23,964 nt of DNA from a virus: IMG/VR virus record IMGVR_UViG_3300020469_000263, positions 1 through 23,964 of that record. One strand, given 5' to 3'. This document shows positions 17,637 through 23,964 of the stretch, one piece after another. The position numbers and the translations under genes were made by a program. Within the stretch, counting starts at the first letter, position 1; the number at the start of each line of letters is the position of its first letter. The notes under the pieces are model-generated. The model did no database searches and was not told where the DNA came from. It worked only from the letters and a program-made list of their open reading frames with translations.

Positions 17637-18200
17637 ATGAAAAGAACTATAGCAGTAATTGCTGCCTTGATGCTAGTGCCATCTACGACACTAGCATCTT
17701 CTATTAGACCAGGAAGTAGAGTGACTCACGGTTCACTTAATTCTAAAGTTAAATCTAGATCACCGTTATGTAAAGATGCAGAAGAAAAGTTTACACAGGA
17801 ATGTGAGATAACAATAGATGAGACTGGTGTTAAAGGACCATTAGGACACATCACGAATGTAGTCCAATGGAAAACAGAAGAGCAAGACTATAGTGTAGGT
17901 GGAGCAGCAGTCGGTGCTGTTGCTGGTGGTGCTGGTGGTATGATAGTAGGACTAGGTAGTTGTGCCTTTACTGGCCCCTTATGTTTGTTTACTGCACCAG
18001 CAATTATGTCTGGTGGTGTAACAGCAGGTGCTGGTGCTGGTGGTAACCGTAGTGGGAGGTTCTTTACTATCGTTGGTGATGATGCTCAAGGCACTAGACT
18101 AATACAAGAGTTTAAATATAAATATGGCAAAGATGTTAAGAAAGCATCTAAGCTACTGCTCAAGACAACTAAGTTAGCAGAAGGAGAATTGCGTGACTAA
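17637..18200 (+). CDS. Secreted glycine-zipper-like protein
   Basis: This 187-aa protein has a clear Sec signal peptide (MKRT, hydrophobic core IAVIAALMLVP, likely cleavage after Ala20 in TTLA-SS). The mature part has Cys45 and Cys56, a beta-prone region, and then a Gly/Ala-rich hydrophobic segment at ~87-137 with repeated small-xxx-small spacing (VGGAAVGAVAGGAGG, TAGAGAGG). This segment resembles the glycine-zipper motifs of membrane-inserting proteins. The C-terminus is Lys-rich. It is in a tight operon with the lipoprotein upstream and the small membrane protein downstream (8-nt overlap). The function is unknown. Confidence 0.78.
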   Translation: MKRTIAVIAALMLVPSTTLASSIRPGSRVTHGSLNSKVKSRSPLCKDAEEKFTQECEITIDETGVKGPLGHITNVVQWKTEEQDYSVGGAAVGAVAGGAGGMIVGLGSCAFTGPLCLFTAPAIMSGGVTAGAGAGGNRSGRFFTIVGDDAQGTRLIQEFKYKYGKDVKKASKLLLKTTKLAEGELRD

Positions 18201-18408
18201 ATTATGGAGGATATGGAAGTATGCACTGGGTAGTTTCTCTGATGAAAAGACCAAGAGGTATGACAATTCTATTGTCATTATACGATCTTTTGTGTTTCTT
18301 ACTTATCTCATCACTAACTGTTTTATTGTGGCAGGGGTCATAAGGCATTGGGACAGTAACAAAACTGTCCACCAAGTTGACCATTGCCCTTCAGACCTGT
18401 TATACTAG
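18193..18408 (+). CDS. Small single-span membrane protein
   Basis: This 71-aa protein has a basic/aromatic N-terminus (LWRIWKYALGSF), a charged loop (SDEKTKRYDNS) and one hydrophobic span (roughly residues 27-49, including FVFLTYLITNCFIVAGVI), then a polar tail. The ATG lies in the end of the preceding gene (8-nt overlap). The 3' part of the gene contains the dyad and promoter for the following zincin/VWA gene. I recognise no named family; it looks like the third member of an envelope-directed trio. Confidence 0.7.
   Translation: MTKLWRIWKYALGSFSDEKTKRYDNSIVIIRSFVFLTYLITNCFIVAGVIRHWDSNKTVHQVDHCPSDLLY
18351..18370 (+). repeat. Dyad GGACA-N10-TGTCC before the zincin/VWA promoter
   Basis: GGACAGT (18351-18357) and ACTGTCC (18364-18370) are perfect inverted arms around AACAAA. 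The distance from the end of the right arm to the -10 start at 18401 is 31 nt. The dyad at 21392-21411 has the same half-sites and spacing and sits at exactly the same distance from its -10. It is a possible operator or activator site. Confidence 0.55.
18377..18406 (+). promoter_or_regulatory. Early promoter before the zincin/VWA gene
   Basis: TTGACC (18377-18382), an 18-nt spacer and TATACT (18401-18406) lie inside the end of the preceding membrane-protein gene. The predicted leader is only ~18 nt and contains GGAGA just before ATG 18430. Confidence 0.68.
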
Positions 18409-18429
18409 GTGTATCAAAGACGGAGATGT

Positions 18430-20565
18430 ATGATCAATCAGGAAGTTAAAGGCACGCTTGCTAAACTGCTTGCTACTGAAAATCTAAAGGTTGAGCATCG
18501 TAATGTATCTACTGCATGTTTTGATGTGTCAAGTAGAGTTTTGATTCTACCTGTATGGGAGGATGCATCTAATACTGTATATGATTTGTTGGTTGGACAT
18601 GAGGTTGGACATGCACTCTATACTCCTGATGAGAGGTTTGATGCACCAAAAGATTTTGTGAATGTTATAGAAGATGCTCGTATTGAAAGAATGATGAAGA
18701 AGACTTATCCAGGTCTAAGAAAGTCATTCTTTGATGGGTATAGTGAGTTGTGGAATAGAGATTTCTTTGGAGTTAAAGGAGAGGATCTTAGTTTGATTCC
18801 CTTTATTGATCGTATCAACCTATACTATAAAGGTAATAGTACTATAGAATTTACAGATGAGGAGAGAGTATATGTAGATCGTGCTGCTGATACAAAGACT
18901 TTTGCTGATGTTGTACAACTTGCAAAAGAAATTTATGGGTATGCAGAAGAAATGCAAGATCAGAAAGATCAGCAGCAAGCACAAGTAAATGCTGATGGAA
19001 GTTCTGAGGGGGATATAGAAGAGATGCAGATGGATCAAGGTGATGATGAGATGACAGATGAGGAATTACTTGAGGAATTAAATAAACCACTTAATCCTTC
19101 ACAGTCACAAGATGATACTGCTGATTTAGATACTCCTAGTTTTCAATCTAATAATCCTAGAGTTGGTGGAGTAACACATGATGAAACTAAATCAATAACT
19201 GAAGAAGCACTTCGTGAATCATTAGAAACATTAATTTCGGATGATGGTAAAGAGTGGGTTTATCTTGATCTACCTAATCTTAAATTAAATGATTTTCGTA
19301 TTGGACATAAAAAAATATTTCAAGATATGGAAGATCATTTTTCTACCATAGAAGCACACAGACAAGAAGAGAATCTTAAAGAATATAACCAGTATAAAAG
19401 ATCTGCTCAAAAATCTGTTAACTATCTTGTGAAACAGTTTGAGATGAAGAAATCTGCAGATCAGTATTCAAGAAATGCAGTATCTAAAACTGGTGTAATT
19501 GATACTAATAAACTTCACACTTACAGATATAATGAAGATATCTTTAAGAAAATAAATGTAGTTCCTGATGGCAAGAATCATGGCTTGGTTATGTTACTAG
19601 ACTGGTCTGGATCTATGAGTCAAGTCTTAATGGATACTCTAAAGCAAACTTATAATCTAGTTTGGTTTTGTAAAAAAGTAAACATTCCTTTCCGAGTACT
19701 CGCATTTCAGAATAGTTTTGGAGGATATGGAAATCTTGAAAATGATTATATGAAGGTTGATAGTTTGTATGTTGGTGATGGCTTTAAATTACTTGAATTC
19801 TTTTCATCTCAAATGAATAGTAAGAAGTTGGATAAGCAGTTACAGAACATATGGCTCCATTCTAAAGCAATGACTCACTATGGATATTATTCTTACCATA
19901 AAGATTATGGATTAGGTGGCACCCCTTTAGCAGAAGCTATCATGTGTATGCGTCAAGTCGTAAGTGAAATGAAGTCTGTTGAGAAAGTGCAAAAAGTTAA
20001 TGTAGTTTCTTTAACTGATGGTGAAGCAAATCCTATCCAGTATGTTACAACTAATAATAGATATTATGGTGAAGCAAGTTACAATGATGAGAATCTAATT
20101 GCAAGACAGATGTGTCATTCGAGACAAAAGGTATTCATTCTAAGAGATCCTCTTACTGGATATGCTCGCAAATTGGATCACAATCCTTTTAAGACTACAC
20201 AACAAATTGTATCTTTCTTCCAAGAGATTACTAATTATAATTGGATTGGTATTCGTCTTTGCAGTAAAACTGAAATGGTTAGAAATATTAGAACACATAT
20301 TGGTTGGGCAGATGAAACAATACTTGAGAAAGCATCATCAACATGGTCAAAAGAAAAGTATGCTACAGTCAGTGGTATAACTGGATTCACAAAACATTTC
20401 TTTATGCCTAATAAATCTATTGGTGATGGCACTGAGGATTTAGAAGTGAAGCAAAAAGGTGAAGTTGCAACTAAAGCAGAATTGAATCGTGCATTCAAAA
20501 AGCACATGGGATCAAAGATGACTAATAAAACTATCCTAAATGCTTTTGTTGAGCAAATAGCATGA
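18430..20565 (+). CDS. Zincin-like peptidase with VWA domain (CobT-like)
   Basis: This 711-aa protein has an N-terminal zinc-peptidase signature HEVGH (His57-His61), followed by NVIEDARIE (Glu81/Glu86), a likely third ligand. Then come a helical region, an acidic Gln/Asp/Glu-rich linker (about 175-250), a helical part, and a C-terminal von Willebrand A domain. The VWA carries a MIDAS site, DWSGSMS (Asp391, Ser393, Ser395), plus GGTPLAEAI and SLTDGEAN. This order is reminiscent of CobT and of VWA partners of MoxR-type AAA+ ATPases; a CobS-like ATPase is encoded nearby. Start ATG 18430 (with GGAGA) is preferred to GTG 18409, which lies at the promoter. It overlaps pcyA by 4 nt (ATGA). Whether it is a protease, a chelatase chaperone part, or both is unknown. 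Confidence 0.85.
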   Translation: MINQEVKGTLAKLLATENLKVEHRNVSTACFDVSSRVLILPVWEDASNTVYDLLVGHEVGHALYTPDERFDAPKDFVNVIEDARIERMMKKTYPGLRKSFFDGYSELWNRDFFGVKGEDLSLIPFIDRINLYYKGNSTIEFTDEERVYVDRAADTKTFADVVQLAKEIYGYAEEMQDQKDQQQAQVNADGSSEGDIEEMQMDQGDDEMTDEELLEELNKPLNPSQSQDDTADLDTPSFQSNNPRVGGVTHDETKSITEEALRESLETLISDDGKEWVYLDLPNLKLNDFRIGHKKIFQDMEDHFSTIEAHRQEENLKEYNQYKRSAQKSVNYLVKQFEMKKSADQYSRNAVSKTGVIDTNKLHTYRYNEDIFKKINVVPDGKNHGLVMLLDWSGSMSQVLMDTLKQTYNLVWFCKKVNIPFRVLAFQNSFGGYGNLENDYMKVDSLYVGDGFKLLEFFSSQMNSKKLDKQLQNIWLHSKAMTHYGYYSYHKDYGLGGTPLAEAIMCMRQVVSEMKSVEKVQKVNVVSLTDGEANPIQYVTTNNRYYGEASYNDENLIARQMCHSRQKVFILRDPLTGYARKLDHNPFKTTQQIVSFFQEITNYNWIGIRLCSKTEMVRNIRTHIGWADETILEKASSTWSKEKYATVSGITGFTKHFFMPNKSIGDGTEDLEVKQKGEVATKAELNRAFKKHMGSKMTNKTILNAFVEQIA

Positions 20566-21251
20566 GTAGAAGTATAGTAGAAGATATATCAGATCTCATT
20601 CGTCAGGTAGTGAAAGATCTACCTGGCTTTGAGAAGATGGATAATGAGTATCCTGAGATTAATCATAAACAAGTACACATTGTTAATGAGATGTGGAAGT
20701 CCACTGGTCTTAGGAAGATACATCTAGAAACTGGTAAAGCACAAGGTATGGATGTGCTTCATTGTGTTCTATTTCCAGATCCCAGATATAATATTCCTAT
20801 CTTTGGATGTGATATTGTTGCGACTCCAGCAACAGTGACTGCTGCAATTGTGGATGTGTCACCTGTATATGGAACAGATAGAGTGTATCCTGATATAGCA
20901 AGAGTGGCTAATAGTTTTACGTTTAAACATATGAGACCTTTACCATTATGGAGTGAAGAGATATTCTCTCCTCATTGTAAGTTTATGCGTCTTAAAAGTG
21001 AGATTGATAAAGCAAATTATTATTGTGTAGTATCATTGTACCTAAGAATATTTTGTGATGTTGTACGTGATGCTAAACATGATCATTTCTGGCCTAATGT
21101 AATGAGAAGAATTGATGATCAGATTTGGTATTGTAAGTCACAGAAGAAAAATGATAAGACTTTATCTGTATTATCTAAATGGTTTGATAGAGAATTTGCA
21201 GAGAAATATATAGATACTATACTGTTTGATGAACCAGATGCAAAATACTAA
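20562..21251 (+). CDS. pcyA: Ferredoxin-dependent bilin reductase (PcyA-like)
   Basis: This 229-aa protein is of the bilin reductase family, which reduces biliverdin using reduced ferredoxin to make phycobilins. The core HLETGKAQGMDVLHCVLFPD, followed by IPIFGCDIVATPATVTAAIVDVSP, is diagnostic. Glu56, His67 and Asp84 line up with the PcyA catalytic Glu76, His88 and Asp105 (Synechocystis numbering, from memory), with a one-residue deletion between Glu and His. Their presence favours a PcyA-type over a PebS-type enzyme; a PcyX-type enzyme is the main alternative. Its start overlaps the zincin/VWA gene by 4 nt, so they are translationally coupled. It is a host-derived auxiliary metabolic gene. 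No heme oxygenase gene is visible in the window. Confidence 0.88.
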   Translation: MSRSIVEDISDLIRQVVKDLPGFEKMDNEYPEINHKQVHIVNEMWKSTGLRKIHLETGKAQGMDVLHCVLFPDPRYNIPIFGCDIVATPATVTAAIVDVSPVYGTDRVYPDIARVANSFTFKHMRPLPLWSEEIFSPHCKFMRLKSEIDKANYYCVVSLYLRIFCDVVRDAKHDHFWPNVMRRIDDQIWYCKSQKKNDKTLSVLSKWFDREFAEKYIDTILFDEPDAKY

Positions 21252-21402
21252 ATGGTCAGCATACATATTACTGCAATCAAATAGACTTACTAAAGTGGAG
21301 TTTGTTTGTGAATCTAATTTGAGAGAAGATGCTATACAAAGATGCAAGGCATTATATGGTGTGAATGATGTAAGGCAACTGACTAGGGTGTGGACACATT
21401 AA
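21238..21402 (+). CDS. 54-aa protein after pcyA
   Basis: An ATG inside the end of pcyA (14-nt overlap) opens a 54-codon frame, ending at TAA 21400-21402. It begins MQNTKWSAYILLQSNRLTKV and ends with NDVRQLTRVWTH. The alternating hydrophobic strand-then-helix pattern (YILL..., KVEFVCESN, LREDAIQRCKALYG) looks like a small alpha/beta domain and is typical of real coding sequence. It has two Cys. I recognise no family. The stop codon sits in the loop of the 8-bp dyad that precedes the CobS promoter. Confidence 0.65.
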   Translation: MQNTKWSAYILLQSNRLTKVEFVCESNLREDAIQRCKALYGVNDVRQLTRVWTH

Positions 21403-21413
21403 TAAGTGTCCAC
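21390..21413 (+). repeat. Dyad before the CobS promoter, same half-sites as at 18351
   Basis: GTGGACAC (21390-21397) and GTGTCCAC (21406-21413) are perfect 8-bp inverted arms around ATTAATAA. The inner element GGACA-N10-TGTCC (21392-21411) ends 31 nt before the -10, as at the zincin/VWA promoter. There is no T run, so it is a poor intrinsic terminator. Confidence 0.6.
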
Positions 21414-21419
21414 TCATGG

Positions 21420-21447
21420 TTGATTCATGGCTTGAGCGTGTTATAAT
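21420..21447 (+). promoter_or_regulatory. Early promoter before the CobS-like gene
   Basis: TTGATT (21420-21425), a 16-nt spacer and TATAAT (21442-21447) with a GTGT extension. AAGGAG (21461-21466) follows, close to the ATG at 21471. It probably drives the CobS-DUF3310-gp45 operon. Confidence 0.75.
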
Positions 21448-21470: not shown

Positions 21471-22565
21471 ATGACTTTTCAAGCAAAATTTACAGATGAT
21501 GATCTAATTTCCTTCTTTAAGACTGGAGATATCACTAGCGACCAAGTTGTGAGTTTTGCTGACAGTGTTGGTGTTAAGACTCAGAGTGTTACAAAGAGAA
21601 TGAATAAGTTACCACAATTCTCTAAGGTTGGTCGTGGTAAGTGGAATCTTAGTACTGTGGAAAGACTTGAAGTGCAAGAGCAAGTTACTAAACGAGTAAA
21701 GAAAGCAATTGAAAATCTTGCACCAGCAAAGGATCCTAATTATGTTCCTTTTGGTAACTTCTCTGATGTTAAGAAAGTTATTCAGTCAAAGTTATTCTAT
21801 CCCACATTCATTACTGGACTCTCTGGTAATGGTAAGACTCTATCAGTAGAGCAAGCATGTGCTCAGTTGGGTAGAGAACTTATTCGTGTAAACATTACAA
21901 TCGAAACAGATGAAGACGATCTTATTGGCGGTTTCCGTCTTGTTGATGGTAACACCGTATGGCACAATGGCCCAGTCATCGAAGCACTCAGACGAGGTGC
22001 TATCTTGCTCCTTGACGAGATCGACCTTGCCTCTAATAAAATTCTCTGTCTCCAATCCATTCTCGAAGGAAAAGGAGTCTTCCTTAAAAAAATCGGAGAA
22101 TACGTCCAACCAAAAGACGGATTCAACATCATCGCAACTGCTAACACTAAAGGTAAAGGATCCGAAGACGGACGATTTATTGGAACTAATGTGCTCAACG
22201 AAGCCTTTCTAGAAAGATTCCCCATAACCTTTGAGCAGAATTATCCTACTCCAGTTACTGAAACTAAGATCCTACTTAATGCTGGTTGTGATCAAGAGTT
22301 TGCTGATAACTTAATTAGGTGGGCAGGTGTGATCCGTAAGACATTCTATGATGGTGGTGTTGATGAAGTTGTAACCACTCGTAGATTAGTTCACATCGTG
22401 CAGGCTAAAGAAATTTTTGGGGATCGTCTTAAAGCAATCACTAATTGTGTTGCTAGGTTTGATGATGATACTAAAGAATCTTTCCTAGATCTTTATACAA
22501 AGGTTGACGCAGGAGAAGAAACAGAGTATACTGAGGAGGACAAACAAGATAATAATGAAGTATAG
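21471..22565 (+). CDS. cobS: CobS/MoxR-like AAA+ ATPase
   Basis: This 364-aa protein starts with a small helical, winged-helix-like part (1-80; TQSVTKRMNKLPQFSKVGRGKW). The AAA+ core has Walker A GLSGNGKT (116-123), Walker B LLLLDEID (179-185 ends Asp185), sensor-1 Asn225 in ATAN and candidate Arg finger Arg249 (NEAFLERF). This is the protein named CobS (cobaltochelatase subunit) in cyanomyoviruses, but the motifs only show MoxR/CobS-type AAA+. Its expected partner would be a VWA protein such as the one at 18430. The C-terminal ~20 residues are acidic. Codons in 21900-22230 end in C far more often than in the rest of the gene. Overlaps the next gene by 11 nt. Confidence 0.9.
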   Translation: MTFQAKFTDDDLISFFKTGDITSDQVVSFADSVGVKTQSVTKRMNKLPQFSKVGRGKWNLSTVERLEVQEQVTKRVKKAIENLAPAKDPNYVPFGNFSDVKKVIQSKLFYPTFITGLSGNGKTLSVEQACAQLGRELIRVNITIETDEDDLIGGFRLVDGNTVWHNGPVIEALRRGAILLLDEIDLASNKILCLQSILEGKGVFLKKIGEYVQPKDGFNIIATANTKGKGSEDGRFIGTNVLNEAFLERFPITFEQNYPTPVTETKILLNAGCDQEFADNLIRWAGVIRKTFYDGGVDEVVTTRRLVHIVQAKEIFGDRLKAITNCVARFDDDTKESFLDLYTKVDAGEETEYTEEDKQDNNEV

Positions 22566-22866
22566 TGAAACTGAAATCCTGAAGGAGGTAACTGATTATA
22601 TCAGTTCCACCTATCAGGGGCACTACAGTGCTGGTAGGGTGCAAACATTAGATCTCATTGATTCTGTTGGAGATGCTGAAGCATTCTGTAGGAGTAATAT
22701 CCTTAAGTATGCTTCTCGGTATGATCGAAAGGGTACAGCAAGAAGGGATATCATTAAGATTATCCACTATGCAGTTCTCCTATGCCACTTCAACGATAAA
22801 CGTTCTAAGTCACAAGATCTAGCAGCAACCAACACAACCGCCTTCGCAGTAGACTACGACAGATGA
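22555..22866 (+). CDS. DUF3310-like protein
   Basis: This 103-aa protein (ATG 22555, MKYSETEI) overlaps the CobS-like gene by 11 nt; AGGAGGA at 22534-22540 is 14 nt upstream. The region RVQTLDLIDSVGDAEAFCRS followed by NILKYASRYDRKGTARRDI and IIKIIHYAVLL fits the DUF3310 pattern ('...ID+i...AF..GN.+KY..R...K....DI.KA..Y...L'), common in phages and of unknown function, sometimes linked with nucleotide metabolism. The downstream end overlaps gp45 by 4 nt, so it belongs to the replication operon. Confidence 0.78.
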   Translation: MKYSETEILKEVTDYISSTYQGHYSAGRVQTLDLIDSVGDAEAFCRSNILKYASRYDRKGTARRDIIKIIHYAVLLCHFNDKRSKSQDLAATNTTAFAVDYDR

Positions 22867-23525
22867 CAGTAATTTCTAAAGAGACCATTGATCTATTACA
22901 AAACTTTTCGACTATTAATAAGTCAATTGTTATTAAACCTGGTAATCAGATTGAAACACTTAGTTTAAATAAAAACATTCTTGCTAAAGCAAAGGTGCAA
23001 GAAACTTTTGATCGTGATATGGCGATCTATGATCTACCATCTTTGATATCGCTCTTTAATCTATTTGATGGCAGTCCACAAATTGATACTGATACAAGCA
23101 GTCATCTTTTAATTAGCAATCAAAATAGTAGATCTAGAGTTAAGTTCTTTTATTCTGATCCAGATATCATTGTACAACCACCTGATAAGGATGTTGATCT
23201 TCCTTCAGAGGATGTATCTTTTAGGTTAGAAGCACCAGTGCTTCAGCAGATTCGTAAGGCATGGTCTATTTGTGGTGTGCCTGACTTATGCTTAACTGGT
23301 AATGGTAGTGAGATGGAGTTGTGCTTAACTGATAAGAAGAATGATACATCCAATACATACTCAGTTGTGGTTGGTGAAACTAATGATGAGTTTTGTTACT
23401 GTTTTAAGATGGAAAACCTAAAACTCTATCCTCAAGGTTATGATGTAACTATAAGTAAGGCTAACGTTGCTCGTTTTGAAGCAGACAATGTTAAGTATCT
23501 TATTGCTCTCGAACCCAATTCATGA
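22863..23525 (+). CDS. 45: Sliding clamp (gp45)
   Basis: This 220-aa DNA polymerase processivity clamp of the T4 gp45 type (T4: 228 aa) works as a trimer around DNA. In T4 it also contacts gp55 RNA polymerase to activate late promoters. Typical pattern elements are MTVISKETIDLLQNFSTINKS, NQIETLSLNKNILAKAKVQE, FDRDMAIYDLPSLISLFNLF and the C-terminal KYLIALEPNS. Starts with an ATGA overlap with the upstream gene and ends with another into the last gene. In T4 gp44/gp62 follow; here one unknown gene intervenes first. Confidence 0.93.
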   Translation: MTVISKETIDLLQNFSTINKSIVIKPGNQIETLSLNKNILAKAKVQETFDRDMAIYDLPSLISLFNLFDGSPQIDTDTSSHLLISNQNSRSRVKFFYSDPDIIVQPPDKDVDLPSEDVSFRLEAPVLQQIRKAWSICGVPDLCLTGNGSEMELCLTDKKNDTSNTYSVVVGETNDEFCYCFKMENLKLYPQGYDVTISKANVARFEADNVKYLIALEPNS

Positions 23526-23964
23526 ACATCTTCGTAACTGATCCAGATCCTGTTGCCTCAGCACAATGCTTACCAGATAGGCACGTAGTCAAGATGCCCC
23601 TAGAATCATGTCAAATGCTTTCTATTGTTGCGTCTGCTAGTTGGGGGCATGGTTATGGTCATTTACCTAAGAAGAAAACAGGCACTTGGTATGCTACTGC
23701 TAAGGGTGCCTTTCGTAATCATCCTTGCACTATCTGGGCACAGTCTAACTTTCGTTGGTTGATCAAGCATGGTCTTGCTCTATGTGCTGAGTATACACAC
23801 AGATATAATAAGATACATTCGTGTCAAATTACTCTAGAGTATGCTGACATCATATTCCCTGCTATCGAATGTCCTACCCCCTTTACCAGAGCAATGCCTG
23901 ATGAGTATAAACATGACACAAGCATTGACACTTTTACTGCTTACAAAAATTACATTAGCAGCAA
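23522..23964 (+). CDS. Unrecognised protein after gp45, 3' end outside window
   Basis: The frame opens at an ATG overlapping the gp45 stop and stays open to the window edge (147 codons). It begins MNIFVTDPDPVASAQCLPDR and has the striking stretches HVVKMPLESCQMLSIV, GAFRNHPCTIWAQSNFRWLI and ARAMPDEYK-like FTRAMPDEYKHDTSIDTFTAY. His, Cys, Trp and Asp are unusually frequent, as in metal- or DNA-binding enzymes. From memory similar proteins occur beside gp45 in cyanomyoviruses and carry no firm function; a relation to pyrimidine-dimer glycosylase-type proteins is possible but not shown. Confidence 0.8.
   Translation, partial: MNIFVTDPDPVASAQCLPDRHVVKMPLESCQMLSIVASASWGHGYGHLPKKKTGTWYATAKGAFRNHPCTIWAQSNFRWLIKHGLALCAEYTHRYNKIHSCQITLEYADIIFPAIECPTPFTRAMPDEYKHDTSIDTFTAYKNYISS

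Follow-up and report, generated by a model that had tools for sequence, protein, structure and literature searches.

Introduction

How are two neighbouring operons of a T4-like cyanophage controlled, when the same inverted repeat stands at the same distance in front of both of their promoters? The question is raised by a 23,964-bp IMG/VR fragment of such a phage (record IMGVR_UViG_3300020469_000263, positions 1 to 23,964), referred to below as the window. An earlier note, made from the letters of the window alone, had drawn attention to two copies of the dyad GGACA-N10-TGTCC and had suggested a shared DNA-binding regulator, host- or phage-encoded, for the two halves of a putative AAA+/VWA machine. 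Here we follow this element through viral contigs, reference phages and cyanobacterial genomes. Judged from sequence, the dyad and a -10 hexamer without a conserved -35 probably form a distinct promoter class of the cyanobacterium-infecting Kyanoviridae, and it seems just as probable that the dyads are the operator of a dimeric activator, itself probably phage-encoded. Cyanomyoviruses are among the most abundant phages of the ocean, and a published account describes as unclear how their early and middle transcription is ordered when alt, motA and asiA are missing (PMC2984593). A cis-element with a sequence, a spacing and a list of targets makes early and middle control in cyanomyoviruses directly testable.

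The dyad and its conservation

The window contains exactly two matches to GGACA-N10-TGTCC, at 18351-18370 and 21392-21411; shuffled windows are expected to contain 0.01, and none of 100 shuffles reached two. The first base of the -10 hexamer falls 31 nt past the last base of TGTCC in both cases, the hexamers being TATACT (18401..18406, plus strand) for the zincin/VWA-pcyA operon and TATAAT (21442..21447, plus strand) for the CobS-like/DUF3310/gp45 operon. The positions, the distance and the arm lengths of 7 and 8 bp given in the earlier note were confirmed. At its full width of 24 bp, copy 1 occupies 18349..18372 on the plus strand (position-weight score 31.0; 7-bp core arms GGACAGT at 18351-18357 and ACTGTCC at 18364-18370) and copy 2 occupies 21390..21413 on the plus strand (score 39.0; 8-bp arms GTGGACAC at 21390-21397 and GTGTCCAC at 21406-21413). 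A position-weight scan of the window found no copy beyond these two.

The GGACA/TGTCC of the window is one local form of the half-site of a wider 24-bp element, a symmetric palindrome with the consensus TGTG(A/C)CAGTT-N4-AACTG(T/G)CACA, separated from a TATAAT-type -10 by a gap of 28-31 bp, most commonly 29. Across 2.9 million IMG/VR viral contigs, an exact search for the ideal palindrome with a TATAAT at a gap of 20-32 recovered 43 stretches, every one with a gap of 28-31. The palindrome alone was found in at least 120 stretches, and a mirrored control palindrome of equal composition in none. Circularity was avoided by measuring the spacing in 515 non-redundant dyads picked by dyad score without using the -10. 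TATA[AC]T stood at a gap of 28-31 in 247 of them (22, 152, 64 and 9 cases at gaps of 28, 29, 30 and 31, respectively), while every other gap held at most four cases.

Conservation at the two loci was complete. A related dyad lies 31-33 nt (from TGTCC) before the -10 at 57/57 non-redundant IMG/VR CobS loci, and a dyad is present at 52/52 zincin promoters, which were scored by a model that had been trained anew on complete phage genomes; 51 of the latter score above 12, compared with 0.3% of shuffled sequences. Close relatives retain both dyads, the CobS copy with some point changes. Loss of the dyad where the promoters persist was looked for in relatives and not seen at either locus, and a search for many copies away from promoters did not overturn the association.

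As the earlier note had said of one copy, dyad 1 lies in a coding region: it is inside the 3' end of a small open reading frame (ORF) of the Syn9 gp149 family (18193..18408, plus strand; tblastn E 2.5e-13), and its left arm is partly coding. Because of this location its conservation may come in part from coding constraint (W-D codons TGG-GAC), and the overlap with a conserved coding end (R-H-W-D) lends some colour to chance, or coding conservation alone, as the source of the pattern. That explanation is refuted by the shuffles, the exact scans, the zincin loci and the gap distribution, and dyad 2, like many other dyads, is intergenic; we give it practically no weight.

Promoter architecture

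An alignment of 661 non-redundant promoters gave 0.7-1.9 bits per column in the dyad arms and up to 1.4 bits in the -10, and in the -35 region none of the columns was conserved (about 0.2 bit at most). A fair -35 (5-6 of 6 matches) occurs at 12% of sites, against 1.5% in shuffles. If the -10 is taken to start at -12, the dyad extends from about -64 to -41, with its centre at about -52.5. Among 81 ideal palindromes, nine have a -10 on both sides. Single dyads with -10-like elements on either side were also noted at 66,590(+)/66,615(-) and 68,752-68,777 in P-SSM2 and at 20,115-20,140 in S-PM2, and such two-sided dyads are apparently shared by divergent promoters.

Since the element is an inverted repeat, it might act as a nucleic-acid structure, namely a terminator hairpin, a cruciform or the stem-loop of a recombination cassette resembling the promoter-early stem-loops (PeSLs). 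Terminators and promoters do often occur together: a separate GC-rich, terminator-like hairpin is present in 91 of the 661 spacers between dyad and -10 (about 14%; 13 expected), and these promoters are therefore packed directly behind terminators. The real terminator hairpins, however, lie downstream of the dyad, in the spacer, and the dyad itself is not followed by a T-run. Nor is there covariation between symmetric positions of the arms. At positions 5/20 the C-G and A-T pairs (291) are not commoner than A-G and C-T (301), and at positions 8/17 C-C and G-G (327) outnumber G-C and C-G (267). The dyad thus has neither the base-paired, covarying arms nor the T-run of a PeSL or terminator stem-loop, and a structural role is very improbable. 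Arms that do not covary therefore point to a protein-dimer site rather than a hairpin, each arm being read independently, as by the predicted dimeric protein. The two-fold symmetric half-sites, conserved independently and in fixed register to the promoter, are what the operator of a dimeric DNA-binding protein would show. The shared DNA-binding regulator of the earlier note is now strongly supported by the fixed geometry in hundreds of promoters, the independence of the arms and the absence of the mirrored control.

Distribution across phages and hosts

Reference phages were scanned at a score above 18, some palindromes being counted once per strand. About 13-29 sites each were found in Syn9, P-HM2, P-SSM2 (1-100 kb) and S-PM2 (1-50 kb), and almost none in shuffled phage genomes. 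Besides the zincin and CobS promoters, each genome has about 10-30 more dyad promoters, which cluster in the region of small ORFans (44-54 kb in Syn9, 30-40 kb in P-HM2, 42-69 kb in P-SSM2 and 2-24 kb in S-PM2), and most copies precede small ORFan genes. The proposal of a regulator for the two AAA+/VWA halves therefore holds in so far as both operons carry the dyad at every locus examined, but the regulon is far wider and consists mostly of ORFans.

The element was also sought in hosts, as the dyad might be bound by a cyanobacterial transcription factor whose site the phages mimic or exploit, as with PhoB. No promoter-type site occurs in the 2.37-Mb genome of Synechococcus WH7803, which is annotated as the host of S-PM2, and dyad-like block-only words are rarer there than in shuffled sequence. 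Near-matches in 251 Cyanobiaceae genomes are, on an approximate reading of the table, roughly as frequent as matches to the mirrored control; of 20 stretches that were inspected, most proved to be coding sequence or half-sites. A host regulon, sought by pattern in WH7803 and in the 251 genomes, was accordingly rejected; near-matches of the Prochlorococcus type were half-sites within a repeat or in coding sequence. In the repeated host sequence, TGTGACAGTTNNNNAACTCAAATA precedes a conserved TGTGAGGAGTTGAGATCCTCCGCAGTGG stretch; up to three copies are present per genome, and they match one dyad arm plus the core but have no good -10 at the proper distance. Three Cyanobiaceae genomes (G013, G136 and G152) stand out from the rest with 5-6 near-matches apiece, an excess that possibly stems from phage contigs binned together with host sequence.

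P-SSP7 and Syn5, unrelated T7-like cyanophages that infect the same hosts, are without the dyad, and the motif is unlike both NtcA sites and the cyanobacterial Pho box. On the other hand, the dyad follows the host phylum, as a host factor would lead one to expect: Prochlorococcus and Synechococcus phages carry it, and HTVC008M, a SAR11 kyanovirus with the same zincin-CobS gene pair, does not. Host PhoB is known to bind S-PM2 promoters (PMC10976474), and the region that holds many of the dyads is probably expressed first, at a time when a host factor would be on hand. Taken together, we consider a host factor unlikely, though it keeps a real share of the probability. In HTVC008M (NC_020484, 87235-91077) the zincin-CobS pair has sigma70-type -35/-10 promoters with TTGACT-type -35s in place of the dyad, and promoter type therefore varies with the host.

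The putative regulator

The pattern of presence and absence favours a regulator encoded by the cyanobacterium-infecting kyanoviruses, and of the two origins left open by the earlier note, host or phage, the phage is now the probable one, given that WH7803 and unrelated cyanophages lack the dyad. We infer protein binding, activation rather than repression, the phage origin of the protein and early timing. In the proposed mechanism, a homodimeric DNA-binding protein would occupy about -64 to -41, just upstream of RNA polymerase, and would recruit the host sigma70 polymerase through the C-terminal domain of alpha or through sigma to promoters whose -35 is poor or missing. The activator would most likely be phage-encoded, conserved in the clade and made before or early in the dyad expression class. 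Its regulon would comprise the ORFan takeover cluster, the zincin/VWA operon and the CobS operon with gp45.

The same palindromes could instead be repressor operators, through which the promoters are shut off later or a subset is kept silent. Promoter-proximal palindromes often have this function, and the 12% of promoters with a good -35 could start unaided. The site nevertheless lies wholly upstream of the core promoter, with 28-31 bp between its end and the -10, and a fixed distance combined with a missing -35 is a requirement of activator sites, not of repressor sites. Repression is, in our judgement, distinctly unlikely.

Some observations weigh against a phage-encoded activator of all these promoters. 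Because of the sites with a fair -35, an activator would not be needed by every promoter. The dyad tracks the host phylum, being absent in HTVC008M, which a host factor could explain too. Searches of conserved cyanophage-only small proteins against Pfam and PHROGs yielded no helix-turn-helix (HTH) domain and no regulator.

Several candidates for the regulator were considered and rejected. The phrog_385 'transcriptional regulator' beside phoH has no HTH in Pfam, and the dyad-less HTVC008M also has a gene of like annotation adjoining phoH. The conserved cyanophage-only small proteins (gp58, gp96, gp136, gp161-167, gp206 and others) matched no DNA-binding family, and the early-region families DUF7717/T4-GC 68, T4-GC 66 and T4-GC 70 had no HTH match.

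The activator reading leads to a broader proposal, which we hold to be evenly balanced: that marine T4-like cyanophages have replaced the MotA/AsiA system of T4 by a phage-encoded dimeric activator of their own, which would open the ORFan takeover genes and the zincin, CobS and clamp operons by way of a single palindromic promoter class. If this is true, the motif alone would mark takeover genes in any cyanophage contig. The dyad offers bait with which to look for the regulator, and from it regulon membership can be predicted for hundreds of metagenomic ORFans; the identity of the protein that binds it could reveal how cyanophages time the takeover of the cell.

Genes of the two operons

The gene assignments of the earlier note (zincin/VWA, pcyA, CobS-like, DUF3310 and gp45) hold. 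The first gene after dyad 1 (18430..20565, plus strand) encodes a zincin/VWA protein of 711 aa, in the translation of which HEVGH and DWSGSMS are visible. Homologues occur in 463 phage records and a Pfam search matched no family; it is an unclassified core cyanophage protein, paired with the CobS-like ATPase. The second gene (20562..21251, plus strand) encodes a pcyA-like ferredoxin-dependent bilin reductase (Pfam Fe_bilin_red, E 7e-49). Dyad 2 is followed by genes for the CobS-like AAA_5 ATPase (21471..22565, plus strand; Pfam AAA_5, E 5e-19), a DUF3310 protein (22555..22866, plus strand) and the gp45 sliding clamp (22863..23525, plus strand; Pfam gp45-slide_C). The last ORF of the window, after gp45, encodes a Pyr_excise endonuclease resembling pyrimidine-dimer glycosylase (23522-23962); in P-HM2 a Pyr_excise gene (PHM2_139) has the equivalent place between gp45 and gp44. 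Small genes of the gp149 family, to which the ORF upstream of the zincin gene belongs, recur in 21 dyad-bearing contigs at a distance from ideal palindromes, and paralogues of these genes seem to be present in the ORFan regions.

Comparison with known systems

A literature search found no description of the dyad; the Syn9 transcriptome (Doron et al. 2016) lay outside that search, and novelty is provisional. A putative middle promoter has been reported in P-SSM4 and Syn9 and not in P-SSM2 or S-PM2 (PMC2984593), whereas the dyad is present in both of the latter. No match was found between the dyad and the Pho and NtcA consensus sequences used for cyanophages (PMC3037559). Host PhoB boxes are likewise regulatory sites in kyanovirus promoters, but they answer to a host regulator, have another sequence and concern few genes (PMC10976474). 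The pMarR protein of P-SSP7 is a cyanophage-encoded dimeric regulator that contacts the alpha subunit of RNA polymerase (PMC9692554), although P-SSP7 is a T7-like phage and has no dyad of this kind.

The PeSLs of T4-like phages combine a promoter with a stem-loop in hyperplastic regions, and some dyad spacers do hold a terminator, but what is conserved in the cyanophages is not the stem-loop; it is a dyad of the protein-site type, placed before the promoter. Sites of the CRP/NtcA type, in class I and class II arrangements, are likewise palindromes just upstream of the polymerase in fixed phase, and activation is expected of them. Class II activators are centred at -41.5 and class I activators at -61.5, and the dyad, near -52, falls between these positions. 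Its half-sites, TGTGnCAGTT around an N4 core, differ from TGTGA-N6-TCACA and GTA-N8-TAC, and the consensus of the 661 sites fits none of the NtcA, CRP and PhoB sites.

Early sigma70 promoters of T4 and of the host have a TTGACA-like -35 at 16-18 bp, whereas the dyad promoters have no -35 consensus. T4 late promoters have a TATAAATA -10 and no upstream element, in contrast to the TATAAT and upstream dyad described here. Cyanomyoviruses are reported to be without motA and asiA (PMC2984593). The middle promoters of T4, activated by MotA and AsiA, likewise have a -10 without a conserved -35 and an upstream site at fixed spacing, and likewise serve a whole gene set of a T4-like phage. Nothing is conserved at -30 in the cyanophage promoters, and where T4 has its short MotA box at that position, the cyanophages have a 24-bp dyad near -52.

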